Source: a virus
Strand: one strand, 5' to 3'
DNA length: 23,310 bases
Virus record (IMG/VR): IMGVR_UViG_3300049855_000126
Span: 1-23,310 of that record
In this document: piece after piece, positions 2,655 to 22,572 of the stretch
Numbering within the stretch: the stretch's first letter is position 1
Layout of the letters: each line of letters opens with the position of its first letter
Notes under the pieces: model-generated
Seen by the model: only the letters and a program-made list of their open reading frames with translations
Told to the model about the DNA's origin: nothing
The model's database searches: none
Translations under genes and position numbers: made by a program

Positions 2655-3164
2655 CTACGCTGCCGTGTCGCCTTCAACGCTGATAATGACGCTGTCTGTG
2701 TTATACGCAGCAGCGCCTGCCGTCACCGTGCGACGGACCCACACAGCGTAGTGCTGACCAGCCGGGATGGTGCCGAGGGAAAGGCCGGTGCCCTTGCTGG
2801 AGGGTGACGTGAAGGACTCACCAGCCGGGGCCGTGTTCTCGTTGGCCACAGTTTCAGCCGTGGCGTTCAGGCCCTCACCAGCGAGGGCGATGGCCACCGT
2901 GGTGTCAGTGGAGGGAGTGTTGGTGCTGATCCAGACGACCGCATTCTGAAGTGAGAGAGAACCATGTGCATTGTGGACGTAGAAGCAGCGGTACTCAATG
3001 TCACCGGCTGCCGACTCATCACCGGTGACCTGATCGAACAGGTTGTGAAGGGAAGCGGTCGTGATCTGCACCGAGGACTTTGCACCACCGAGCGCAGCGT
3101 TCACATCCGAGTTCGCTGCACCGCCTGAAAGGCGGAATTGAATGTCTGTAGCTGTGACGGGCAT
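2655..3164 (-). CDS. Phage structural protein, 169 aa, RLSGG family, first copy
   Basis: The N-terminus MPVTATDIQFRLSGGAANSD is followed by NAALGGAKSS, HNLFDQVTG, AGDIEYRCFYVHN, a beta-rich middle, NTAPAGESF and YAVWVRR. It is the closer match to the family as I know it from other phages; the 162-aa copy is more diverged. A strong AGGAGA site lies 6 nt before the ATG. A promoter candidate and a palindrome precede it, so it is probably the first gene of a separate structural transcript. A virion role is likely, given composition and position between head genes and the fibre-like repeat protein, but the exact structure is unknown. Confidence 0.8.
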   Translation of the reverse strand: MPVTATDIQFRLSGGAANSDVNAALGGAKSSVQITTASLHNLFDQVTGDESAAGDIEYRCFYVHNAHGSLSLQNAVVWISTNTPSTDTTVAIALAGEGLNATAETVANENTAPAGESFTSPSSKGTGLSLGTIPAGQHYAVWVRRTVTAGAAAYNTDSVIISVEGDTAA

Positions 3165-3182
3165 GTGAATCTCCTATCTGCT

Positions 3183-3197
3183 AAACCTATTAGGTTT
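3183..3197. promoter_or_regulatory. 15-bp palindrome, possible operator
   Basis: AAACCT and AGGTTT flank ATT as a perfect inverted repeat between the candidate -10 box and the ribosome binding site of the 169-aa structural gene. It could be an operator or a small leader hairpin. A second 10-bp palindrome (TAAGCGCTTA, 3212-3221) lies in the promoter spacer. Confidence 0.4.
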
Positions 3198-3224
3198 CAT
3201 ACATCAAGCTTTAAGCGCTTACAA
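3196..3224 (-). promoter_or_regulatory. Candidate sigma70-type promoter for the structural operon
   Basis: Read on the minus strand, a TTGTAA -35 box (3224-3219) and a TATGAA -10 box (3201-3196) are separated by 17 bp. They lie in the 71-bp gap between the metallophosphoesterase gene and the 169-aa structural gene. Each hexamer matches the consensus at four positions, so this is a moderate candidate seen by eye only. Confidence 0.35.
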
Positions 3225-3235
3225 CCAGAAACAGA

Positions 3236-4837
3236 TCAGGCCCGCCACTTGCCTTCCCAGCAAGTTATGATCGCACGCTTGCCGTTACTGTAGGTGACCA
3301 CATGCGAGTAAGACCAGGACGAAGGGCCTTTCTTATACTTCGGATTCATAGCGCAAGTGCCTGCAACGTACAATCCGTCCACAATGCGAGCTGAGTGAGT
3401 GTGCCCGGTGTTCGCGCGGCGTCCGATACGTGATAAGTTTAGCGGGTTACCGCGTTGACCGTCAGGGCCCAGATCACCGTGCATGCCACATTCAATGCCT
3501 CCATGGTCGGCACAAATAACGAAGGACTCATCCTGACGAAGGAAACGGAAACTCCCAGAAAGGCCTGTGGCACGCAGAGCGTCTTCCACAACGTGGTAAC
3601 TGTCATTTCCCGACTCCATTGCCTTGTAGTACGCGAGTTGCCGTTCGAGGAAGAACACCGCATTTGGCGGATCGAAGCGGTAGTCCCCTTCGCGCAACCA
3701 GCGTACCATCGCATTGTCGTGGTTCGAGTCAACGATGATTGTCTCACACCACGACCTGTTGACTTGTGAGCTTAGGAAACGTGCGAGGTTAGTGCACTCG
3801 CTCGCCACGTTATCCCTGCTCGTCTTGTACTTCAGATAGAAGGCGTGAGGGTCTTTTGTATCATGGTGATTGCGCGACCGGAAGTCGAGTGAGTCGTGCA
3901 TGAATTGAAAGTGTGGCCTGAGAGTATCTAAGATACCATCCTTGCCCCAGTTCATGCTACGCACTTCCTCGTCCATGCAGTCGTCGTGGATGTCACCCCA
4001 ATTGATTGCCTCAACGCGGACGCCTTCAGCGACCTTCTCACGACTGACGCGACGGTCGAGGTCCTGAAAGGATCCATCGTCGGCGGCTGAGATCTGGCGA
4101 ACATACCAACACCCATCTTCATCGACTTCGACGATCAAGGCGCCGTAAATGTGGTGAAACTCTGCTTTGATACCTTCCTTGCGTTGAAGATAATTGCGCT
4201 TCGTGACCGTGCCGGTCGTGTAGTTGAACTTCGCACCTTCGCCTTTGATCTGTGCGACCGAAGCCATCGACATCTTAGCATGTGGAAAGATGCCAGACTT
4301 ACGTCCAGTGTAGGTCTCGAGGCCTGACAGTGGGCGAACCGCGGTCGGCAGGATATTCATCTCACCGCAGAAGACGAGGTTCGGCGCAAGCTCGACCGAG
4401 TCGTCGCAGACGTAGTCGGCAATCTCGCTAGCGTACATCACGCCGTCCGAGTCAATGCTCGCATCCGAATAGGCTTTCACCTTTTCGCGGACACGTTGAA
4501 AACCTGTCTTGTTGTAAGTGTAGCGGGACACGAGCAATTCGACGTTGTCCGTTCCTTCGCGGGCAAGTAGCCAGTCCTTGTAGGTGAGGAGATTCTTCCA
4601 GAACCCGTCATGGACGAGTGTGTTGTTCTGCGCCGATGTGACGATGTAGTACTTGACGCCCGACTTCGGTACCTTGCGAACTTTTATTTTTCGTTCGCTG
4701 GTCTGGCCTGTGTACACAGGCCCTTCGGTTTCAATGATCTTCTTGACTGCTGAGCGTGAAAGTCCAGTTGCTCGAGCCGTCGCTCTGATTGAGCCCGTCT
4801 TGTCATATACTGATCGTACTGCAAGATTACTTTCCAT
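3236..4837 (-). CDS. Phage T5 A1-like metallophosphoesterase with N-terminal helix-turn-helix, 533 aa
   Basis: The C-terminal two thirds carries the ordered motifs of the calcineurin-like metallophosphoesterase fold: GDIHDD (281-286), SNHDNA (371-376), ADHGG (443-447), GMHGD (451-455) and GHTHS (478-482). These supply Asp, His and Asn ligands for a two-metal centre. Residues about 14-36 (GSIRATARATGLSRSAVKKI) form a helix-turn-helix of the resolvase/transposase type. Length and motif order fit the phage T5 DNA transfer protein A1, a ~556-aa protein needed for second-step transfer and host DNA breakdown. By analogy it may be a Mn-dependent nuclease that attacks host DNA or modifies phage DNA. 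The start has AGGAGA 5 nt upstream. It is odd that such a usually pre-early gene lies among late structural genes. The family call is fairly good; the biological role is inferred. Confidence 0.65.
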   Translation of the reverse strand: MESNLAVRSVYDKTGSIRATARATGLSRSAVKKIIETEGPVYTGQTSERKIKVRKVPKSGVKYYIVTSAQNNTLVHDGFWKNLLTYKDWLLAREGTDNVELLVSRYTYNKTGFQRVREKVKAYSDASIDSDGVMYASEIADYVCDDSVELAPNLVFCGEMNILPTAVRPLSGLETYTGRKSGIFPHAKMSMASVAQIKGEGAKFNYTTGTVTKRNYLQRKEGIKAEFHHIYGALIVEVDEDGCWYVRQISAADDGSFQDLDRRVSREKVAEGVRVEAINWGDIHDDCMDEEVRSMNWGKDGILDTLRPHFQFMHDSLDFRSRNHHDTKDPHAFYLKYKTSRDNVASECTNLARFLSSQVNRSWCETIIVDSNHDNAMVRWLREGDYRFDPPNAVFFLERQLAYYKAMESGNDSYHVVEDALRATGLSGSFRFLRQDESFVICADHGGIECGMHGDLGPDGQRGNPLNLSRIGRRANTGHTHSARIVDGLYVAGTCAMNPKYKKGPSSWSYSHVVTYSNGKRAIITCWEGKWRA

Positions 4838-9604: not shown

Positions 9605-10565
9605 TTCTCAGTCTCCTAAACGCGGACGGCATTTTGGCTTTCAGCGCAGGAAGAGTAATTTGCTCGCCGTCTTCATCTAGGAACTTCTCGGGCTTGACGC
9701 CACCCTCTTTCCAAAGACGATACCGCGTAGGACCTAAAGCCTCTACCTGAACCGCTTCAGGCTGGTTATCCAGCCACTCGAACCAGTTCTGTTTACGCGG
9801 AATCTTGTCGCCAATCAAGAGTGGAGCCATAGTAGATCGGCAGTTGAGGTGTCCGGGAGGCCGCGGGCCTTTGTTGATCGGGAAGGTCTTGCCTGACAGA
9901 AATCGGCAGGTGTCGCTCGTGTGGGAGTCGAGAACTGAGACCCAAACGAGACGCTTCATGATGTGACCATTGACGGCCCAGACGGCAGCGCGGCCAGCGC
10001 TAAAAGCGTGCATGACGGTAGACTTGACGAGCAAGGCGAGCGCTCGGTAGCTCTGGGCCCGGGCCCCATAACGCCTCACTGGCTCAAGAACCGCCTGTGC
10101 GACTTTCTTTGCGGTCCTGCCGTAGGACACTTCAGTCCTGATCGTGCGCATAACGCGGTTCTTGTCATCGTTGAAGGCTTGCTCCATCCATTCGACCATG
10201 GCAGCGCCTTGGAAGAGCTGGTTGCGCACCTGCTCGAGAACCGCGACGGTGCCGGGATCCAAGACATCCTTCCCTGACAAGGACAGCGCGTCGATCTCGA
10301 CGAGCGCTGAATACTGGGCAAGTTCGTCGGCCAGTTCCTGAAGGGTCTGCTTCATCTCGGAATGGTACTTCGCGAGGATGTTCTCGACTTTCGAGTCTAG
10401 GACCGCGACCTTGAGCGGGTAAGTCAGCGTGACGAGATAGTTCCGCAACTCCTCCTGATTCTTTTCGAGGATCTTTTCGAGTTCAAGCACCTTGCTATTC
10501 GCAAGGCGCGAGAAGCGCATCTGATTCTCGACGGAGAAGTTCAGGAGTTGGTCAGTCTTGCTCAT
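9588..10565 (-). CDS. MuF/SPP1 gp7-like minor head protein, 325 aa
   Basis: The C-terminal signature runs VWVSVLDSHTSDTCRFLSG (208-226), GPRPPGHLNCRSTMAP (233-248). This is the Thr/Cys...His-x-Asn-Cys-Arg pattern of the phage Mu F-like domain, found in minor head proteins such as SPP1 gp7. These bind the portal and help DNA ejection. The N-terminal ~150 residues are helical and charged. The start overlaps the end of the reductase gene by 4 nt (ATGA). In most phages this gene directly follows the portal gene; here the reductase has been placed between them. Confidence 0.88.
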   Translation of the reverse strand: MSKTDQLLNFSVENQMRFSRLANSKVLELEKILEKNQEELRNYLVTLTYPLKVAVLDSKVENILAKYHSEMKQTLQELADELAQYSALVEIDALSLSGKDVLDPGTVAVLEQVRNQLFQGAAMVEWMEQAFNDDKNRVMRTIRTEVSYGRTAKKVAQAVLEPVRRYGARAQSYRALALLVKSTVMHAFSAGRAAVWAVNGHIMKRLVWVSVLDSHTSDTCRFLSGKTFPINKGPRPPGHLNCRSTMAPLLIGDKIPRKQNWFEWLDNQPEAVQVEALGPTRYRLWKEGGVKPEKFLDEDGEQITLPALKAKMPSAFRRLRNDQSE

Positions 10566-12346
10566 CCGCAGGTCTTCTGTCCGGTGTTCGGGTCGATCTC
10601 ACACGCCTGTTCTTCTTTCTCGGGTTTGGCTTTCATGATGCCCATGCGCTTTCCCGAGGCGCGGAATGTTGTACATCCTTTGGCCCCGCCTTCCCAAGCC
10701 ATCATGTAGATGTTCTTGAACTCCTCCCACGTCACGTTGTCACCAACGTTGCAGGTTTTCGAGCAGGCCGAGTCAACGAACTTTTGTGCTGCGCACAACA
10801 CCTTGACGTGGTCGGTGGCCGAGCACTTGTCGGCTGTGACTCCTTTCACGCCAAAGTTCTTCACACCGTAGTCAACGACTGAGAACACCTGAGGCCCTTC
10901 TGGGAAGATGATCGTCCGGTCGTAGCCATAAGAGAAGACAGGCTCAATGCCTGACGAGATGTGGTCAGCAGAAATTGAGATCGTGCCGGTCGGCGCAATC
11001 GAGAGCAGATGAGAGTTGCGGATGCCGTTCTCGAATATCAGAGCTTTGATGCGGCCAGGCAGTGTCTGAATGAACTCGCCTTCGAGATACTTGTTTGCAT
11101 CGTAAAGCGGGAAGGGGCCCTTTTCCTTCGCGAGGAGTGCTGACGTCTCATAAGCCACGTCTCGCAGTACGGCGAGGATCTTGTCTTGCAGCTTGATGTA
11201 CTCGTCTGTGCCGTACATGAAGCCGCATGCTTCGATTGCGTTCGCCATGCCGGTGACGCCTAAGCCCATGCGCCTCTTCGACTTAGCCTCCTGTTCCTGC
11301 TGCGGCAGTGGGTACTTCGACACGTCAACAATGTTGTCCATCATGCGGACAATGCCTGGGATGTCTGCCGAGAATGCTTCGAGGTCGATGAAGCGGCGCG
11401 ACCCACGCTGCTTCACGTACTTGGTGACGTTGAAGGAGCCGAGGAGGCAGGCGCCGTAAGGTGGGAGTGGCTGCTCGCCACATGGATTGGTCGCCGCGAT
11501 GTACTCGCAGTACCAGAGATTGTTCGCCTTGTTGATCCGGTCGATGAAAAGGATTCCAGGCTCTGCGTAGTCCCAGGTCGAGCGCATGATCTTGTCCCAC
11601 AGGTTGCGGGCGTTGACGCTCTGGATCACTTCGCCTTTCCAGATGAGGTCGAAGGTTGCGCCCTCGCGGACTGCGGTCATGAACTTGTCAGTGATACCGA
11701 CAGACAGATTGAACCCTGCGAGTGGCAACGTCGACTGCATCGCGGCCCACATGGCTGACTTCTCAGGACCATCGTCCATCTTCGCAATGAAGTCCCAGAC
11801 GACACGTGTCTTCTCGGTCGGCTTCTTCGCGTCAATGAACTCCTCAATATCAGGATGGTCAACGCGGATGACGCCCATCATGGCGCCACGACGATTACCA
11901 GCCGACGCGACCGTCTTACAGGCGGCGTCAAAGGGTGACATAAATGAGACAGCGCCTGAAGCAGGCTGGCCTTGCGACTTGATCAGTGCGCCGTTGTAGC
12001 GCAGCGTCGAAAAGTCGTACCCGATGCCGCCGCCCATGCGCATTGTCTTGAAGGCATTGGTGAGCGCACCGAAGATGCCGTCGGTCGAGTCCTCGATAGT
12101 CTCAGACACGAAACAGTTGTAGGCCGTAACCTCGTGAGCAGAACCAATCGCGCGCTGGATGCGACCCGCAGGCAAGAACGCTTGGTCGAGCAGAGTCATC
12201 TTGATATCTCGCCGATGCTCCTCGCTGTCCGATAGCGGTCCAATGATGCGGCACACCATATCGTAGAAGCTCTCATTCTTCGCGCGATACTTCTCGCTGT
12301 GAGTCAATTCTGCAACAGGGTCCGCGGGACCATACCAGTTAGACAT
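10562..12346 (-). CDS. nrdJ: Adenosylcobalamin-dependent (class II) ribonucleotide reductase, 594 aa
   Basis: The enzyme reduces ribonucleotides to deoxyribonucleotides for DNA synthesis. The active site NPCGE (287-291) supplies Asn287, thiyl Cys289 and Glu291. Cys78 (YNCFV) and Cys300 (GAC), the latter exactly 11 residues after the thiyl Cys, form the redox pair expected for NrdJ. APTGTIS (451-457) is the phosphate-binding loop. A C-terminal Cys582/Cys593 pair probably shuttles electrons from thioredoxin or glutaredoxin. There is no N-terminal ATP cone and no small-subunit gene in the window. Length fits short phage NrdJ. It has AGGAG 9 nt before ATG. Its place between portal and MuF genes is unusual for a metabolic gene and suggests late insertion. 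Confidence 0.9.
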   Translation of the reverse strand: MSNWYGPADPVAELTHSEKYRAKNESFYDMVCRIIGPLSDSEEHRRDIKMTLLDQAFLPAGRIQRAIGSAHEVTAYNCFVSETIEDSTDGIFGALTNAFKTMRMGGGIGYDFSTLRYNGALIKSQGQPASGAVSFMSPFDAACKTVASAGNRRGAMMGVIRVDHPDIEEFIDAKKPTEKTRVVWDFIAKMDDGPEKSAMWAAMQSTLPLAGFNLSVGITDKFMTAVREGATFDLIWKGEVIQSVNARNLWDKIMRSTWDYAEPGILFIDRINKANNLWYCEYIAATNPCGEQPLPPYGACLLGSFNVTKYVKQRGSRRFIDLEAFSADIPGIVRMMDNIVDVSKYPLPQQEQEAKSKRRMGLGVTGMANAIEACGFMYGTDEYIKLQDKILAVLRDVAYETSALLAKEKGPFPLYDANKYLEGEFIQTLPGRIKALIFENGIRNSHLLSIAPTGTISISADHISSGIEPVFSYGYDRTIIFPEGPQVFSVVDYGVKNFGVKGVTADKCSATDHVKVLCAAQKFVDSACSKTCNVGDNVTWEEFKNIYMMAWEGGAKGCTTFRASGKRMGIMKAKPEKEEQACEIDPNTGQKTCG

Positions 12347-15235: not shown

Positions 15236-17632
15236 TTAGTAAGCATTCTCGATTCTCCCTTGACCGACAACACCGCCCAGGAGTGCGACTTCGTGTACAC
15301 CCCATACGAGAGCGTCGATGCGGTCAGGCGACTCGTCGCCGGACAATGGCTCCCATTGGCACATCTGATCCTCGAGCTCCGGCATGTCGCCTACGATATG
15401 TGCTCGTTTCTGTTCCCACATGGCCGAAACTGGTTCAGCTCGCGCTTGCTTGCCACGTGCGGCACGCACCATGCGAACAGGCACGTTGCGGTCTACCGTG
15501 TTGAAGACGTGTTTAACCATGTCACCACCCTGATTGACTTCAGCGATGATCGAGTCGCAAGACCACTCACGCCACAAGCGGACAGCTTTCGCGCCCCACT
15601 GTTCTGGCGTCATGCGGCCTGAAGCATCGTGCAGCACATAGATGTGGTCGTCTGAACCGAGGCCTACGACAATCATACCTGTTTCAGCAGACGTCATCTT
15701 GGACGTTGTCGCGGGATCGACGGCGACAACCAGTCGCTTGATCCAAACGTTCTCAGGCATCTTCCTCAGGCGGGTATCGTCAAGGTTCTCGCGGTTCCAA
15801 AGTGCGTCCTCCGACTCCTCTAGCAGCTCACCCATGAGTTCCTGCTTACCGAGGCGTGTGCCTTCGTACTTGGTGATGATCTGCTTGAAGAACGAGTCGG
15901 CGAGGTTGTCGCGGTTGTCATATGTCGAACCTCGCGTGACGATGGTCGCTGGATTGCGAAGGACCTCTTTAATCAACTTGGTCGGCTTCGGCGTGGTCGA
16001 GATAAACGCTTGCGGGTTCTTGCCGAGACGCAGACCGAACATTGCGAGGTCCCATGTCATCGGATCGCGCCATGCGCACAACTCGTCCGCCCAAAGCGCG
16101 TCGTGCTGCGGACCGCGAAGGCGCTCGGCCTCGTCGGCTGAGTACAGTGATGCAATGGCGCCGTGCGCCCATGTCAGTCGTCGCTTCGATGGCTCGTAAA
16201 GAGGCTTGCCCATGAACTGACCGTCATAGGTTTCGTCCTTCTCCCAGCACGAGTTCAAAATGCCTGACTCGCCTTCGACCATAACGTCGCGCGTATCGGC
16301 CGCGGTCGGCGCAATCATACCAACGCGCATCTTGCCGCGCTTCACCCACTCGCGGACTGTCTCGCCTCCGGTGCGAGTATTATGAGTTGGTATCAGTGTT
16401 CTACCTGCAAGGTAGAGCCGTGAAGGAGAATCAACGGTGATACAACGAATAGGCACGGTCGGCACTTCATCGACTGCTTCGATATAGCGAAGACGTGAGC
16501 GCATGAACTGCTTCGTGTACACGTGACGCTCAACCTTTCGTGTCAATTTAGTGAGAACAAAAGGTGCTCTGAAGCGGATATCGTAGTAAGGTTTTGTCCG
16601 CTTCACTACGCCATCAACACGGTACTGACCCATGTGAGAATGAATGGTAGCCTTCAAACCCAGACCACAAGCAAGTTCAAGAATGTCTAAAGCGAGGTCC
16701 TTTTTTGACGACGAGATAGTGTACTCACCTGTTCCTTTCGAGAGCGTTCCATCAGTATCGACAAGTCCTTGCATAAGCGCAATGCGTTGCTCGACTGATG
16801 CGGTAAGATACGCGCGCGGAATATGCTTGTTGTGAAGCAGGTTATTGCTCTTCAGGACGCTATGAAATCCGCCCCCTGACGTAAAGCGTTGTCCTTTTTC
16901 TGGAATCATCCCTACTTGACCAACGTACCGAATGTTATAGTATTTTGCCCGGCCTTGAGCTCGGTGTGGCTTCTCGACGCACTCAAAACCTTCAGCTTCA
17001 ATGTTCGCGATTATCTCAGGATCCATTGACGTGATATAAGCGCTATCGGAATTGCCGTCACCTAACCACGCCCCGAGGACGTAAGGCGGTATAGGAAGTG
17101 ACGCAGTCTCATACTGCAAAGGAGCTGCAACAGCAACAGCGTGGTTGCGCTCGTTCACGTAGATCAGTGTATCTTTGATCTGCTCAGTCGTCCTCACTGA
17201 CGTAGTACCTGCGTATCGCTCGTTCTTCGTCGCAGTCTCCCACAGATGCTCAGCGTCTGCAACAATTGAAGACTCATCTGAGAACACAACATTATAGCAC
17301 CGACGATCATGTAAGACTGGATGGGCTTCAAGGACGTTGCATGGTATGCCTTCTTCGTCAAATACCACGTCACCCGCGACAAGCTCGCCCATGGTCGTCC
17401 ACGACCTGTTCTTAGTCAGAATAGGCGTGTCGACCGCGAGAGCTTTACCTGCACCACGACCAGCGAGGTACAGCCAGAACGACCAATCACCATCGGGAAG
17501 GATCTGTTCAGGACGACCGATAAACGCCCACTGATGCCACAAGGCATCCATTTCCTCAGGCTTGAGGCTCTTGAAGAAAGCAACCCTCTGCTTCTCAGGA
17601 AGTTTCTTGATCTGCTGCAGCGTAACGGTCAT
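15236..17632 (-). CDS. terL: Terminase large subunit (TerL) interrupted by an intein, 798 aa precursor
   Basis: TerL pumps DNA into the prohead using ATP and cuts concatemers. The exteins together make 443 residues, a normal TerL length. Residues 1-63 end in LAGRGAGK, and T419 RTGGE completes the Walker A loop after the intein is removed. Walker B is DALWADE (511-517); STTPKPT (546-552) is a coupling-type motif. The RNase H-like nuclease shows Asp639 (VAVDPATT), Glu698 (IIAEVNQGGD) and Asp773 (DRIDALVWG). Splicing of residues 64-418 is needed for ATPase activity because the P-loop is split. The start overlaps the preceding gene by 38 nt and has no clear ribosome binding site. No small terminase subunit is recognisable in the window. 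Confidence 0.92.
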   Translation of the reverse strand: MTVTLQQIKKLPEKQRVAFFKSLKPEEMDALWHQWAFIGRPEQILPDGDWSFWLYLAGRGAGKALAVDTPILTKNRSWTTMGELVAGDVVFDEEGIPCNVLEAHPVLHDRRCYNVVFSDESSIVADAEHLWETATKNERYAGTTSVRTTEQIKDTLIYVNERNHAVAVAAPLQYETASLPIPPYVLGAWLGDGNSDSAYITSMDPEIIANIEAEGFECVEKPHRAQGRAKYYNIRYVGQVGMIPEKGQRFTSGGGFHSVLKSNNLLHNKHIPRAYLTASVEQRIALMQGLVDTDGTLSKGTGEYTISSSKKDLALDILELACGLGLKATIHSHMGQYRVDGVVKRTKPYYDIRFRAPFVLTKLTRKVERHVYTKQFMRSRLRYIEAVDEVPTVPIRCITVDSPSRLYLAGRTLIPTHNTRTGGETVREWVKRGKMRVGMIAPTAADTRDVMVEGESGILNSCWEKDETYDGQFMGKPLYEPSKRRLTWAHGAIASLYSADEAERLRGPQHDALWADELCAWRDPMTWDLAMFGLRLGKNPQAFISTTPKPTKLIKEVLRNPATIVTRGSTYDNRDNLADSFFKQIITKYEGTRLGKQELMGELLEESEDALWNRENLDDTRLRKMPENVWIKRLVVAVDPATTSKMTSAETGMIVVGLGSDDHIYVLHDASGRMTPEQWGAKAVRLWREWSCDSIIAEVNQGGDMVKHVFNTVDRNVPVRMVRAARGKQARAEPVSAMWEQKRAHIVGDMPELEDQMCQWEPLSGDESPDRIDALVWGVHEVALLGGVVGQGRIENAY
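16379..17443 (-). mobile_element. Intein with LAGLIDADG homing endonuclease and class 3 (WCT) splicing signature
   Basis: The 355-residue insert is TerL precursor residues 64-418. It begins with Ala, not Cys or Ser (ALAVDTPILT), and ends THN before Thr+1. Block B is DAEHLW with His129 and Trp131; block F is IRCITVD with Cys397; block G is T416-H417-N418. Trp131, Cys397 and Thr416 match the WCT triad that defines class 3 inteins, in which the block F Cys replaces the missing N-terminal nucleophile. The endonuclease motifs are LGAWLGDG (186-193) and LMQGLVDTDG (286-295), so homing may be active. The insertion point is between Lys and Thr of Walker A. Its DNA looks more AT-rich than the flanking exteins, in keeping with transfer. 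Confidence 0.93.
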
Positions 17633-18264: not shown

Positions 18265-18630
18265 ATGCTTGTGAGGCGGTTTGGCAATGTCAAGACGAAA
18301 GAGGACGGGCCTCGCTTCGAGATCACGTTCGAACTCGTCGGCATCACGATAGTCGAAGACCCGGTTCTTCAGTCGCGAATGTTGACGCTAGGTCAACGCG
18401 CTGAGCAGTGGGATCCGCAATCCTACCGAGTTGCCGTTGACTACCTTCTGGCGCAGCGGCCACCAGATCCTTACGGATGGCTCGAACTGTGGACTGAAGG
18501 AGAGATTGACAATGACTACCGAGAATACCTTGTTCGAGACTTCTACGCCTCAATCGGTGGGCGACCGGACAATTCACATAGCGTCTTTCCAGGGTCCGTA
18601 CAGATGGCTGAGCAACTTCGCGCCGGTTGA
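18265..18630 (+). CDS. Protein of unknown function, 121 aa, long overlap with the NADAR gene
   Basis: The start MLVRRFGNVKTKEDG at 18265 is chosen because AAGGA lies 7 nt upstream; earlier ATGs at 18223 and 18235 lack a site. The first ~85 residues look like a real acidic protein (EITFELVGITIVEDP, YRVAVDYLLAQRP, WLELWTEGEIDND). The last ~40 residues overlap the NADAR gene in another frame for 119 nt. That overlap is unusually long for this genome. The true C-terminus may be altered by a frameshift or sequence error. No family is recognised. It is the first gene of the plus-strand run. Confidence 0.55.
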   Translation: MLVRRFGNVKTKEDGPRFEITFELVGITIVEDPVLQSRMLTLGQRAEQWDPQSYRVAVDYLLAQRPPDPYGWLELWTEGEIDNDYREYLVRDFYASIGGRPDNSHSVFPGSVQMAEQLRAG

Positions 18631-18991
18631 GGTGGTATTAGACGGCCTCGTCTATTCCACCACAGAGCACGCCTACCAAGCCGCCAAGACAACAAACATG
18701 GCCGAGCGTCGTGCCGTTCGCAAGTGCGCAACGCCTGGCGACGCGAAGCGCATGGGCAGGAAAATAACACTCAGGCCGGACTGGGACGAGATCAAGCTCC
18801 GCGTCATGCGGGACCTTCAGGTACAGAAGTACTCGAAGGAGCCTTACAAGTCGCTCCTGAAAGGAGTGCGTGGCGCCTTCATCGAGGAGGGCAACACGTG
18901 GGGCGACACGTTCTGGGGAGTGTGCCGCGGGAAAGGTCGCAATGAACTTGGCAAGATCCTGATGGAGGTGGCTGATGATCTCGGTGAATGA
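18512..18991 (+). CDS. NADAR family (YbiA-like, DUF1768) protein, 159 aa
   Basis: Residues 24-155 carry the NADAR signatures: SFQGPYRWLSNFAP (25-38), YSTTEHAYQAAK (48-59) with the conserved Glu52, and GNTWGDTFWGVCRGKGRNELGKIL (127-150). YbiA acts as an N-glycosidase on riboflavin-pathway intermediates. Other NADAR proteins remove ADP-ribose from guanine bases and act as antitoxins to DarT-like ADP-ribosyltransferases. In a phage, reversal of host ADP-ribosylation or NAD-linked nucleotide salvage are both plausible. The start MTTENTLF has AAGGAG 9 nt upstream; a longer in-frame start at 18431 has none. Family call is secure, role inferred. Confidence 0.88.
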   Translation: MTTENTLFETSTPQSVGDRTIHIASFQGPYRWLSNFAPVEVVLDGLVYSTTEHAYQAAKTTNMAERRAVRKCATPGDAKRMGRKITLRPDWDEIKLRVMRDLQVQKYSKEPYKSLLKGVRGAFIEEGNTWGDTFWGVCRGKGRNELGKILMEVADDLGE

Positions 18992-19820: not shown

Positions 19821-19975
19821 TTTCATGCTTCACAAAAGGCGGCGCAGCTCGCCTCCGGAACATCTACATCAAGATGGGATGGGAGGTGGGTGAGATTGTC
19901 GAAGGAGGATACGGTTGGCAGTTTGAAGTATGTGAGAGCCGTCTTAGCTCAGTTGGTAGAGCACCTGCCTTGTAA
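19817..19975 (+). CDS. Small protein, 52 aa, whose 3' end lies inside the tRNA-Thr gene
   Basis: ATG 19817-19819 overlaps the previous stop (ATGA), and the frame runs to TAA 19973-19975 in the anticodon loop of tRNA-Thr. The first 41 residues (MISCFTKGGAARLRNIYIKM, then GWEVGEIVEGGYGWQFEVCES) have a normal protein-like pattern. The last 12 are encoded by tRNA sequence. It may be genuine and processed together with the tRNA transcript, or a remnant of a longer gene cut by tRNA acquisition. Confidence 0.45.
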   Translation: MISCFTKGGAARLRNIYIKMGWEVGEIVEGGYGWQFEVCESRLSSVGRAPAL

Positions 19976-20010
19976 GCAGGGGGTCACGAGTTCGATTCTT
20001 GTAGACGGCA
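19938..20010 (+). tRNA. tRNA-Thr(TGT)
   Basis: A complete cloverleaf is visible. Acceptor GCCGTCT/AGACGGC, D arm GCTC/GAGC, anticodon stem CCTGC/GCAGG with loop CTTGTAA (anticodon TGT), T stem ACGAG/CTTGT with one wobble, and discriminator A. No CCA is encoded. It reads ACA codons. Confidence 0.93.
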
Positions 20011-20011
20011 C

Positions 20012-20087
20012 GACAGCGTAGCTCAGCGGTAGAGCAGGGGCCTCATAAGCCTCAGGTCGGTAGTTCGATTCTGCCCGTCTGTCACCA
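20012..20087 (+). tRNA. tRNA-Met(CAT), or Ile2, with a bulge in the acceptor stem; CCA encoded
   Basis: D arm GCTC/GAGC, anticodon stem GGGGC/GCCTC with loop CTCATAA (anticodon CAT) and T stem GGTAG/CTGCC are normal. The acceptor GACAGCG needs CGCTGTC, but the 3' strand reads CGTCTGTC, so one T is bulged out. A CCA end (20085-20087) is encoded. G1-C72 speaks against an initiator tRNA. Elongator Met or lysidine-modified Ile2 cannot be separated by eye. Confidence 0.85.
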
Positions 20088-20088
20088 A

Positions 20089-20164
20089 CGTCTGTTAGCT
20101 CAGTTGGTAGAGCACTCGACCGATAATCGAGAGGTCGCCAGTTCGAACCTGGCACAGACAACCA
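20089..20164 (+). tRNA. tRNA-Ile(GAT) with C33 and a C1-A72 mismatch; CCA encoded
   Basis: D arm GCTC/GAGC, anticodon stem CTCGA/TCGAG and T stem GCCAG/CTGGC are perfect. The loop CCGATAA gives anticodon GAT but places C at position 33, which is almost always T in tRNA genes. The acceptor CGTCTGT/ACAGACA pairs at six of seven positions, with C1-A72 unpaired, a feature otherwise typical of bacterial initiator tRNA. CCA (20162-20164) is encoded. Confidence 0.85.
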
Positions 20165-20168
20165 ATAA

Positions 20169-20244
20169 CAGTGTGTAGCGCAGTTGGTAGCGCATCGGAC
20201 TTGGATTCCGAGGGTCGCTGGTTCGAGTCCAGCCACGCTGACCA
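20169..20244 (+). tRNA. tRNA-Pro(TGG), CCA encoded
   Basis: Acceptor CAGTGTG/CACGCTG pairs fully with one wobble and has C1-G72, as bacterial tRNA-Pro does. D arm GCGC/GCGC, anticodon stem TCGGA/TCCGA with loop CTTGGAT (anticodon TGG), T stem GCTGG/CCAGC, discriminator A and CCA (20242-20244). It reads CCA codons. Confidence 0.93.
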
Positions 20245-20788: not shown

Positions 20789-20963
20789 CGACATCTGCGA
20801 GAACATCGTGCCGAAGGTCGGGCGGCAGACGTACTTCATCTTTCGCGATCCGCAACGCGACGAGACAGACATGGGCATCATGATTGACGGCTTGATCGTC
20901 GAGCGCAACAAGACACGCCATCAGATCGCAACAATCCTCAACGAGCAAGAGGCACGGCCATGA
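20766..20963 (+). CDS. Small protein of unknown function, 65 aa
   Basis: MKYTWEASDICENIVPKVGR starts with GGAG 7 nt upstream. Strand-like GRQTYFIFRDP and GIMIDGLIVERN are followed by a helical end, HQIATILNEQEARP. It overlaps the cupin-like gene by 4 nt (ATGA). No known domain is recognised. Confidence 0.65.
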   Translation: MKYTWEASDICENIVPKVGRQTYFIFRDPQRDETDMGIMIDGLIVERNKTRHQIATILNEQEARP

Positions 20964-21349
20964 AGTGGGACTACGTTGAAGCCGGTATCCTGCACATCAA
21001 GAAGCTCGTCTCCTTCGGAGGTTTTCAAATTAACCTCCACAGGATAACAGGACGGGATCACGTCAACGTGTTCCATTCGCATCCAGCGAAGGCCATCCGC
21101 ATCCTCCTGAAGGGTGGCTATATCGAGGAGGTGCCGAAAGGCCGGTACTCGGACTATGACTACTGGCATTGCGGACGAATTGGGTTCATTGAACCACAAT
21201 TCGTTCACCGCATTGCGCACGTCGAGGACAATGGCTCCTGGACGCTGTGGATCCGCTGGCCGATCACTCACAAGATCAAACTGTTCAATCGCATCGGCGG
21301 CGAGCTGACGCAGGTTGCTGAGGTCTCGTCACCAGGAGTGCTGAAGTGA
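20960..21349 (+). CDS. Cupin-like protein, 129 aa
   Basis: NVFHSHPAKAIRILLKGGYIEE (36-57) fits cupin motif 1 with metal-type ligands His39, His41 and a Glu at 56-57. GRIGFIEPQFVHRI (72-85) fits motif 2 with His83. The end, SWTLWIRWPITHKIK, completes a small beta-barrel. Short single-cupin proteins of this form occur in phages and rhizobia without a known reaction. It overlaps its neighbours by 4 nt and lies two genes upstream of the RNA ligase, so it is probably co-expressed with it. It could be a metal-dependent oxygenase, isomerase or sugar/nucleotide-binding protein. Confidence 0.6.
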   Translation: MKWDYVEAGILHIKKLVSFGGFQINLHRITGRDHVNVFHSHPAKAIRILLKGGYIEEVPKGRYSDYDYWHCGRIGFIEPQFVHRIAHVEDNGSWTLWIRWPITHKIKLFNRIGGELTQVAEVSSPGVLK

Positions 21350-21474
21350 GGCACTGGTCGGACGATCTGAGTTGTCAATGTGGCATGCGTATGCTGAAGC
21401 ACGTCACCGTCCGATGCTGTGCAGGAAGAAGAAATGTGGAACCCAGAAGAGATCAAGTACAGCGTCCCGCCTAG
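21346..21474 (+). CDS. Cys-rich microprotein, 42 aa, GTG start
   Basis: GTG 21346 overlaps the previous stop (GTGA) and has AGGAG with a 7-nt spacer. The peptide begins (fM)RHWSDDLSCQCGMRMLKHVT and has Cys-x-Cys followed 16 residues later by Cys-Cys, a spacing that could bind zinc. Its last 41 nt overlap the start of the GGQ gene. The start signal is good; length and overlap leave doubt. Confidence 0.45.
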   Translation: MRHWSDDLSCQCGMRMLKHVTVRCCAGRRNVEPRRDQVQRPA

Positions 21475-21625
21475 CAAAGGTGGGCAACATGTTGGCGTTG
21501 ATCCAACGGTCATCGGAGAATACCGGGACATAAAGATCGAGTGTGGCGCGCACCGCTCGCAACACAAGAACAAGCAAGCAATCTACGAGATGTTTCTCGC
21601 AGCCTACACAGGAGGATTCACATGA
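21434..21625 (+). CDS. Miniature release-factor (RF-1, GGQ) domain protein, 63 aa
   Basis: SKGGQHV (14-20) and HRSQHKNKQAIYEM (40-53) match the peptidyl-tRNA hydrolase domain of class 1 release factors. RF2, for example, reads GAGGQHVN and then RSQHKNK with nearly the same spacing (25 versus 28 residues from GGQ to RSQ). GGQ is the catalytic motif that enters the ribosomal peptidyl-transferase centre. Nothing remains of the codon-recognition domains, so termination at stop codons is not expected. Codon-independent ribosome rescue, or peptidyl-tRNA release on damaged ribosomes, is more likely. The Asn after GGQHV in release factors is Gly here. The start ATG 21434 has AGGA 7 nt upstream; a GTG at 21419 is an alternative. 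The stop overlaps the RNA ligase start (ATGA). Confidence 0.75.
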   Translation: MWNPEEIKYSVPPSKGGQHVGVDPTVIGEYRDIKIECGAHRSQHKNKQAIYEMFLAAYTGGFT

Positions 21626-22572
21626 GGCAGTTAGTCACAATCAGGACGGTCGACGAGTTGCGACCGATTGAAGGCGCCGACATGATCGAGTTGGCGATTG
21701 TCAACGGCTGGCAGTGCGTTGTCAAGAAGGGCGAGTTCAAGCTAGGGGATAAAGGAATCTATTTTGAAATAGATTCTTTTCTCCCCACGGACAATCCACT
21801 CTTTGCGTTCCTCGCGCCAAAGAAGCGCGTCTTCAATGGCGTCGAAGGTCACCGTCTGCGCACGATCAGGCTCCGCAAGCAATTGTCTCAAGGCCTCCTG
21901 CTGCCTTGTCTCAAAGAGCTTCCGCAAGGAGACCTTGCCGAGCACTTTGGCGTTCAGCTCTACGAGAAGCCGTTGCCTGCTCAGTTGGGTGGGACGGTGA
22001 GAGGCACGTTGCCAAGCTTCTTCCCCAAAACCGATCAGGAACGCATCCAAAACCTCGACGTGTCTCGCCGCGAGGATTTGTTCGAGGTTACCTTGAAGAT
22101 GGACGGTTCGTCAATGTCCGTCTATCGCATGGACGAGGACTACGGCGTGTGCTCGCGCAACTTGTCGCTGCGCGAGACGGAAGGCAACACGTTTTGGGCC
22201 GTCGCGAGGCGCCGGGCGTTACTTGAGATTCTCGCCGCTGACGGGCGGAATCTCGCGTTGCAAGGCGAACTGTGCGGGCCGGGCATCCAGAGCAATCCCC
22301 ACAAGCTTGGCGATCACCAGTTCTTCTTGTTTGACGTGTACTTGATCGACGAGAAGCGCTACATGACGCCGACCGAGCGCATTTTGTTCGCGGCAAAGCA
22401 TCACGTTCAGCACGCGCCGGTGATCGAGCGTGCGTTCAAGCTTCTGCCGAGGCCTGAATTGATGGCGATGGCCGACGCGACGAAGCTTGAAGGCATTGTG
22501 CTGAAGTCCGAGACGGAAGCGTTCTCGTTCAAAGTGATCTCGAATGACTATCTCTTGAAGGAGAAGGACTGA
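21622..22572 (+). CDS. RNA ligase, DRB0094/Rnl5-like, 316 aa
   Basis: The enzyme seals RNA ends using ATP through a lysyl-AMP intermediate. Nucleotidyltransferase motifs are in order: motif I KMDGSS (159-164, nucleophile Lys159), CSRNLSL (177-183), motif III/IIIa LALQGELCGPG (211-221) and FFLFDVY (234-240), motif IV LEGIVLK (289-295), and motif V FSFKVIS (301-307) with Lys304. The N-terminal ~100 residues (WQCVVKKGEFKLGDKGIYFE, DSFLP) match the OB-like domain that precedes the catalytic domain in the DRB0094 type. Members of that type seal 3'-OH/5'-phosphate nicks. AGGAGG lies 6 nt before ATG 21622, which overlaps the stop of the GGQ gene. It is the last gene of the plus-strand run. Confidence 0.9.
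   Translation: MRQLVTIRTVDELRPIEGADMIELAIVNGWQCVVKKGEFKLGDKGIYFEIDSFLPTDNPLFAFLAPKKRVFNGVEGHRLRTIRLRKQLSQGLLLPCLKELPQGDLAEHFGVQLYEKPLPAQLGGTVRGTLPSFFPKTDQERIQNLDVSRREDLFEVTLKMDGSSMSVYRMDEDYGVCSRNLSLRETEGNTFWAVARRRALLEILAADGRNLALQGELCGPGIQSNPHKLGDHQFFLFDVYLIDEKRYMTPTERILFAAKHHVQHAPVIERAFKLLPRPELMAMADATKLEGIVLKSETEAFSFKVISNDYLLKEKD
21751..21780 (+). promoter_or_regulatory. AT-rich hairpin plus U-run inside the RNA ligase gene
   Basis: GAATCTATT (21755-21763) and AATAGATTC (21768-21776) pair perfectly around TTGA and are followed by TTTT. AAAG before the stem can extend the pairing. It lies at ligase codons 44-53 and uses AT-rich codons unlike the rest of the gene. The stem is weak for an intrinsic terminator, so attenuation is only a possibility. 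Confidence 0.35.

Follow-up and report, generated by a model that had tools for sequence, protein, structure and literature searches.

Does a 63-aa protein bearing the GGQ motif of release factors form a dedicated rescue-and-repair system with the RNA ligase whose gene overlaps its own? This question is raised by a phage locus in IMG/VR record IMGVR_UViG_3300049855_000126, whose full extent, positions 1 to 23,310 (the window, that is, the whole stretch of DNA analysed), was examined here. An earlier note on this DNA had read the two genes as such a pair, by analogy with bacterial PrfH and RtcB2, and as a possible counter to host nucleases that cut tRNA or rRNA.

Phage context and accessory region

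The window represents part of the genome of a Nanhaivirus-like phage, a placement made because its capsid protein is 72% identical to that of Dinoroseobacter phage R5C; the corresponding identities to Pan1 and R26L were 68-69%. The genomes of these three relatives measure 72-80 kb, and the window would represent roughly one third of the genome if its size resembles theirs. Structural genes occupy the minus strand, and an accessory region at ~18.2-22.6 kb occupies the plus strand. Among the structural genes sits an adenosylcobalamin-type ribonucleotide reductase (NrdJ_Z; 10562-12346, minus strand), as is likewise the case in R5C, R26L and Pan1. The terminase large subunit (15236-17632, minus strand) has a Walker A loop that appears split by an intein-like insert (GRGAGK / ALAVDTPIL ... 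THN / T), and an intein-containing NCBIfam model matched residues 258-332 of this protein. A 42-bp tandem repeat of 9.7 copies at positions 1-408 yields repetitive ORFs on both strands.

Within the accessory region, a domain search identified a NADAR-domain protein of the ADP-ribose-derivative glycosidase family (18512..18991, plus strand), which is also related to PHROG 1017 and matches the NADAR-family anti-phage model NF053876 far below its cut-off; NADAR proteins act in NAD/ADP-ribose conflicts (PMC9503650). A cluster of four tRNA genes spans 19938..20244 on the plus strand, of which three were found by ARAGORN, namely tRNA-Thr(TGT) at 19938-20011, tRNA-Ile(GAT) at 20089-20164 and tRNA-Pro(TGG) at 20169-20244, while the fourth, at 20013-20083 with CAU in its anticodon loop (CUCAUAA), was missed by ARAGORN and found by Rfam (49 bits). 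The nearness of tRNA genes to which the earlier note had drawn attention is real, the cluster lying 1.2-1.5 kb upstream of the GGQ and ligase genes, but it is rare at similar ligases, as evidenced by a tRNA within the fetched flanks at only 3 of 50 homologous loci. Directly upstream of the 63-aa ORF is a 129-aa gene of PHROG 4786, annotated as cysteine dioxygenase (20960..21349, plus strand), which is possibly in the same transcription unit as the GGQ and ligase genes.

The stop codon of the release-factor-like gene and the start codon of the ligase gene overlap by 4 bp in the sequence ATGA (21622..21625, plus strand), and an AGGAGG at ~21610-21615 immediately precedes the ligase ATG. The pair probably shares a transcript, with translation of the second gene coupled to that of the first. 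The overlap reported previously is therefore present, whereas the statement that the genes are co-translated had been drawn from the overlap, and 4-bp overlaps are routine in this genus (in R5C, 12 of 46 same-strand neighbours overlap by 1-4 bp and 6 of 46 by exactly 4 bp). A scan for promoters and terminators found them no clearly more often than in shuffled sequence.

The solo release-factor domain

The ORF at 21434..21625 on the plus strand encodes MWNPEEIKYSVPPSKGGQHVGVDPTVIGEYRDIKIECGAHRSQHKNKQAIYEMFLAAYTGGFT, a protein of 63 aa that consists of release-factor domain 3 alone and has both the GGQ and the RSQHKNK motif intact. Neither decoding domain 2/4 nor a basic C-terminal tail is present; the protein ends in AYTGGFT and has a pI of 6.8 and a net charge near zero. 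Its sole Pfam match was RF-1 (PF00472; 21.6 bits, E = 2e-4), and because this score is under the curated Pfam threshold of 35 bits, we term the protein a domain-3 homologue and not a regular release factor. NCBIfam gave weak RF2, RF1 and PrfH matches (for PrfH, TIGR03072 scored 11.5 bits versus a cut-off of 166.65). GGQ precedes the RSQHKNK-type motif, which is the order expected of an RF-1 domain, and the occurrence of exact GGQHV and RSQHKNK in one short ORF is not chance (expectation from residue composition = 4e-12). Codon usage supports the frame (+0.12 bit/codon versus -0.35 and -0.75 in the other two forward frames), and the ORF has a Shine-Dalgarno site and a good start. Taken with the superposition of the AF2 model described below, the RF-1 match, the motifs and the codon usage confirm the release-factor identity first proposed for this protein. 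A related-locus search with the single query protein P0001 alone returned no relatives, and one DNA pattern scan covered TCN serine codons only. Genome-contig matches were set aside, the ORFs examined among them being ordinary bacterial RF2-type release factors.

When supplied with a ten-sequence alignment, AF2 modelled the protein at a pLDDT of 75 as a strand, hairpin and helix, with low confidence in the GGQ loop; the predicted fold rests on the homologous alignment, since the pLDDT was only 48 for the single sequence with no homologues. In VIA-align, all 63 residues of the model superposed on domain 3 of PrfH, RF1, RF2, mtRF-R and ArfB (Z = 5.9-7.7, rmsd ~4), and the whole-length alignment to RF1 216-283 (rmsd ~4) contained the beta-hairpin and C-terminal helix fold. 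The top row was PrfH on the damaged ribosome (9mor; Z = 7.7), with the others tied within 1. Because the LiCMS regulatory domain, which is not related, reached Z = 7.0 against the same model, Z by itself does not settle the matter, and the case rests on the sequence motifs. Matches to dsRBD and other non-RF folds were taken to reflect a common small alpha-beta arrangement rather than kinship. The earlier note had stated that a structure unable to place GGQ in the peptidyl-transferase centre would speak against its reading; the model can instead be laid over domain 3 of RF1/RF2, PrfH, ArfB and mtRF-R along its whole length, and judging from it the GGQ could occupy the position that this motif takes in them. 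Activity of the protein alone is nonetheless uncertain, given that every known targeting element is missing and that net charge is near zero. ArfB/YaeJ and mtRF-R (C12orf65/MTRFR) are codon-independent GGQ domains with a fold similar to that of the model, but they have a basic C-terminal tail or a partner protein for targeting, whereas the 63-aa protein stops at the domain and is not basic.

The ligase and the distribution of both genes

The gene at 21622..22572 on the plus strand encodes a 316-aa Rnl5/DRB0094-type ATP-dependent RNA ligase with an N-terminal OB domain and a nucleotidyltransferase domain (PF21189, PF09414 and NCBIfam). The earlier assignment to the ATP-type RNA ligases was correct, the score exceeding the NCBIfam DRB0094 cut-off (TIGR02306; 177.4 versus 151.15 bits). 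The catalytic lysine, K159, lies in KMDG and aligns with the KLDG of Naegleria gruberi Rnl (NgrRnl), and K159, E216, E290 and K304 were invariant across 27 ligase sequences. NgrRnl, for which many crystal structures exist, is the closest solved relative, with full-length similarity (278 bits), and is of a type described as a 5'-3' nick sealer (PMC9931718). With DraRnl and NgrRnl, the window ligase shares full-length homology, the OB and nucleotidyltransferase domains and the catalytic residues; it is an ordinary phage member of the Rnl5 kind (PHROG 968), from which it shows no difference.

The occurrence of the pair elsewhere was surveyed by an alignment-led IMG/VR scan, from which the best 80 ligase loci were retained, and a GGQ...RSQ motif scan found none in their flanks (<=3 kb). 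PF00472 and a phage-based RF-1 profile, which recovers the window gene at E = 2.3e-21 and also matched in other records, were run over the whole records of ~85 ligase-bearing contigs and phages, and a GGQ domain overlapping or adjoining the ligase was found in 0 further cases among these records. A convincing RF-1 domain was present in five IMG/VR contigs among them: in three related contigs (G031, G032, G035) a GKGGQHRNK-type protein lies ~4 kb downstream of the ligase on the same strand, in G029 a GGQ-less domain lies ~1.2 kb upstream of it, and in G040 such a domain lies ~60 kb away. The two genes are separated by 46-53 kb in Otagovirus VCM and Psxphi15 and by >60 kb in Apostate, W16 and Ac42, which are Acinetobacter phages. 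Contig L069 comes closest to a second pairing: there, a GGQ-less RF-1-like protein (1661-2050; GFGSPSR, ERSDHANK) lies ~1 kb upstream of an Rnl5 ligase (3001-4056) on the same strand. In the mini-RF contigs L133, L134, L149-L153, L155 and L156, no such ligase was detected with a ligase profile run without a positive control. The overlapping pair is thus unique to this contig within the collections searched (best 80 ligase loci; ~85 records); many IMG/VR records are fragments, so that absence is weak evidence per record and other cases could be hidden.

The RNA ligase is absent from R5C, R26L and Pan1, and PF00472 found nothing in these three named relatives; no intact mini-RF is present in them. 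R26L carries a degenerate RF-1 homologue detected by the phage-based profile (79 aa, E = 3.4e-5), which has no GGQ and in which QQYRVRN replaces RSQHKNK. Because the three phages have neither the ligase nor an intact mini-RF, the GGQ protein and the ligase are accessory genes. Conservation of the pair in related phages, the lack of which the earlier note had named as evidence against its reading, was not found in the records open to searching.

Phages commonly carry solo RF-1 domains, in many cases with no adjacent ligase, and GGQ has been lost in most lineages sampled. It is retained in mycobacteriophages Blubba and Nanosmite, L133/L134, the L149/L151-L153 group, G031/G032/G035 and the window copy, and lost or changed in Otagovirus (GGM), Apostate, W16, Ac42, IG49, qdvp001, 495E54-1, phage 73 and Knedl as well as in L150/L155/L156, L069 and R26L. 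Solo domains without GGQ (GGM, ARRW, SNW, GHY etc.) were recorded in L123, L124, L125, L129, L130, L131, L010, L069, L150 and L158. The serine and asparagine of RS-x3-N were invariant in an 18-sequence alignment (R26L left out), and most GGQ-less solo domains keep this region. PHROG 20323 and 3122 ('RF-1 domain peptide chain release factor') and PHROG 35727 (unknown function) are likewise stand-alone domain 3, with members of ~64-80 aa that occur in numerous phages and in some cases within tRNA clusters, and mycobacterial tRNA arrays include RF-1-domain genes (PMC5966550). From these families the window copy has diverged far (E = 0.1 to PHROG 20323 and 0.2 to PHROG 35727; <=37% identity to its nearest relatives), its hairpin is 3 residues shorter than in relatives, and it has kept the GGQ that most sampled members have lost. 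The solo GGQ domain is unusual but has precedent, and the ligase is ordinary.

Proposed parallel action and its alternatives

The explanation that we favour, and to which we would give about an even chance, is that the two are accessory translation/counter-defence genes acting in parallel, probably acquired independently, rather than a dedicated two-protein system. They would belong to an accessory set opposite the structural-gene strand, made up of four tRNAs, the NADAR protein, the solo GGQ domain and the Rnl5 ligase, with translation-related and counter-defence roles. Homology predicts that the ligase joins 5'-PO4/3'-OH breaks in RNA of the phage or its host, tRNA being the likeliest substrate. 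The 63-aa protein, whose homology is established and whose activity is presumed, would correspond to domain 3, the part of a class I release factor that hydrolyses peptidyl-tRNA, and has no element for reading codons or for detecting that the mRNA channel is empty; provided that it is active, it may catalyse codon-independent peptidyl-tRNA hydrolysis on ribosomes or split 50S subunits with an open A site, as ArfB and mtRF-R do with extra anchoring parts. Both proteins would then act in parallel on damaged translation apparatus. Parallel action is favoured because colicin E3 and anticodon-nuclease breaks would need healing before an Rnl5 ligase could seal them, and the window showed no recognisable healing enzyme. 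The solo RF-1 domains of many phages with no ligase beside them also speak for it, as does the published precedent of phages whose rescue tools include ATP-grasp RNA ligases alongside a peptidyl-tRNA hydrolase (PMC7824862). A tight overlap with a repair enzyme, on the other hand, would be expected of a functional pair and counts against parallel action.

A dedicated pair, in which the GGQ protein would release the growing peptide where cleaved tRNA or rRNA has jammed a ribosome and the ligase would join the broken RNA again, is in our judgement unlikely. The ATGA overlap with its strong Shine-Dalgarno site and the tRNA and NADAR genes close by argue for such a pair, and there is functional precedent in the PrfH-RtcB2 operon, where, as in the window, the gene of a GGQ-bearing relative of release factors adjoins that of an RNA ligase. 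In that system PrfH frees the peptide on ribosomes cut by colicin E3, and 2',3'-cyclic-PO4/5'-OH ends are joined again by RtcB2 (PMC9223846; PMC6514570). A further precedent comes from passages of a paper on phage tools that undo ribosome jamming (tRNAs, ATP-grasp ligases and Pth2), where the same pairing of functions is proposed in one jumbo-phage genome (PMC7824862); Pth2 is, however, an unrelated peptidyl-tRNA hydrolase, and no tight gene pair is described in those passages. A literature search found nothing joining phage, release factor, GGQ and RNA ligase. NgrRnl-type ligases require 5'-PO4/3'-OH ends, so that anticodon-nuclease breaks, like colicin E3 breaks, would need healing before they could be sealed. 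The analogy to PrfH-RtcB2 therefore needs end-healing enzymes, since RtcB2 acts on 2',3'-cyclic-phosphate/5'-OH ends and Rnl5 does not, and the scanned proteins of the 23-kb window, a fragment from which two thirds of the genome may be missing, included no recognisable kinase, phosphatase or phosphoesterase. The analogy fails on end chemistry, which is the wrong one for cyclic-phosphate-producing nucleases, and the window further differs from PrfH-RtcB2 in its Rnl5 ligase instead of RtcB, a protein lacking the PrfH recognition domain, and a phage location without conservation of the pair. In addition, no second overlapping or adjacent case appeared among the ~85 ligase-bearing records or the GGQ-domain phages found, and most homologous ligases have no tRNA in the fetched flanks. 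Both proteins are genuine, but their putative joint role in rescue and repair is a weak reading, to which conservation in the phages examined lends no support.

It is rather unlikely that the solo domain mainly binds the peptidyl-transferase centre, plugging the A site or dampening host translation, with GGQ as a retained ancestral feature. Most sampled phage lineages have lost GGQ yet keep the RS-x3-N region and the hairpin (R26L being still more degenerate), so that a non-catalytic role is evidently useful, and from their sequences the GGQ-less domains are possible non-catalytic ribosome binders. The window copy, L133, L134, the L149/L151-L153 group and the mycobacteriophages have nevertheless kept GGQ, which suggests selection for catalysis there. 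We consider quite improbable a working minimal release factor without a decoding or anchoring part, coupled to an Rnl5 ligase in a rescue-repair module that evolved independently of PrfH-RtcB2. A decaying, no longer functional remnant of a release-factor domain would fit the shortened hairpin, the sub-threshold profile score and the low identity to relatives, but is very unlikely in view of the open frame with good start, Shine-Dalgarno site and phage-like codon usage, the exactness of both motifs, and the similar-sized homologues in other phages.

If the lone domain hydrolyses peptidyl-tRNA by itself, few peptide-release enzymes would be smaller, and it would reveal the minimal needs at the peptidyl-transferase centre. 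Across the wider family of solo domains, the loss of GGQ with retention of RS-x3-N in most sampled lineages is a testable sign of use as a ribosome-binding module.
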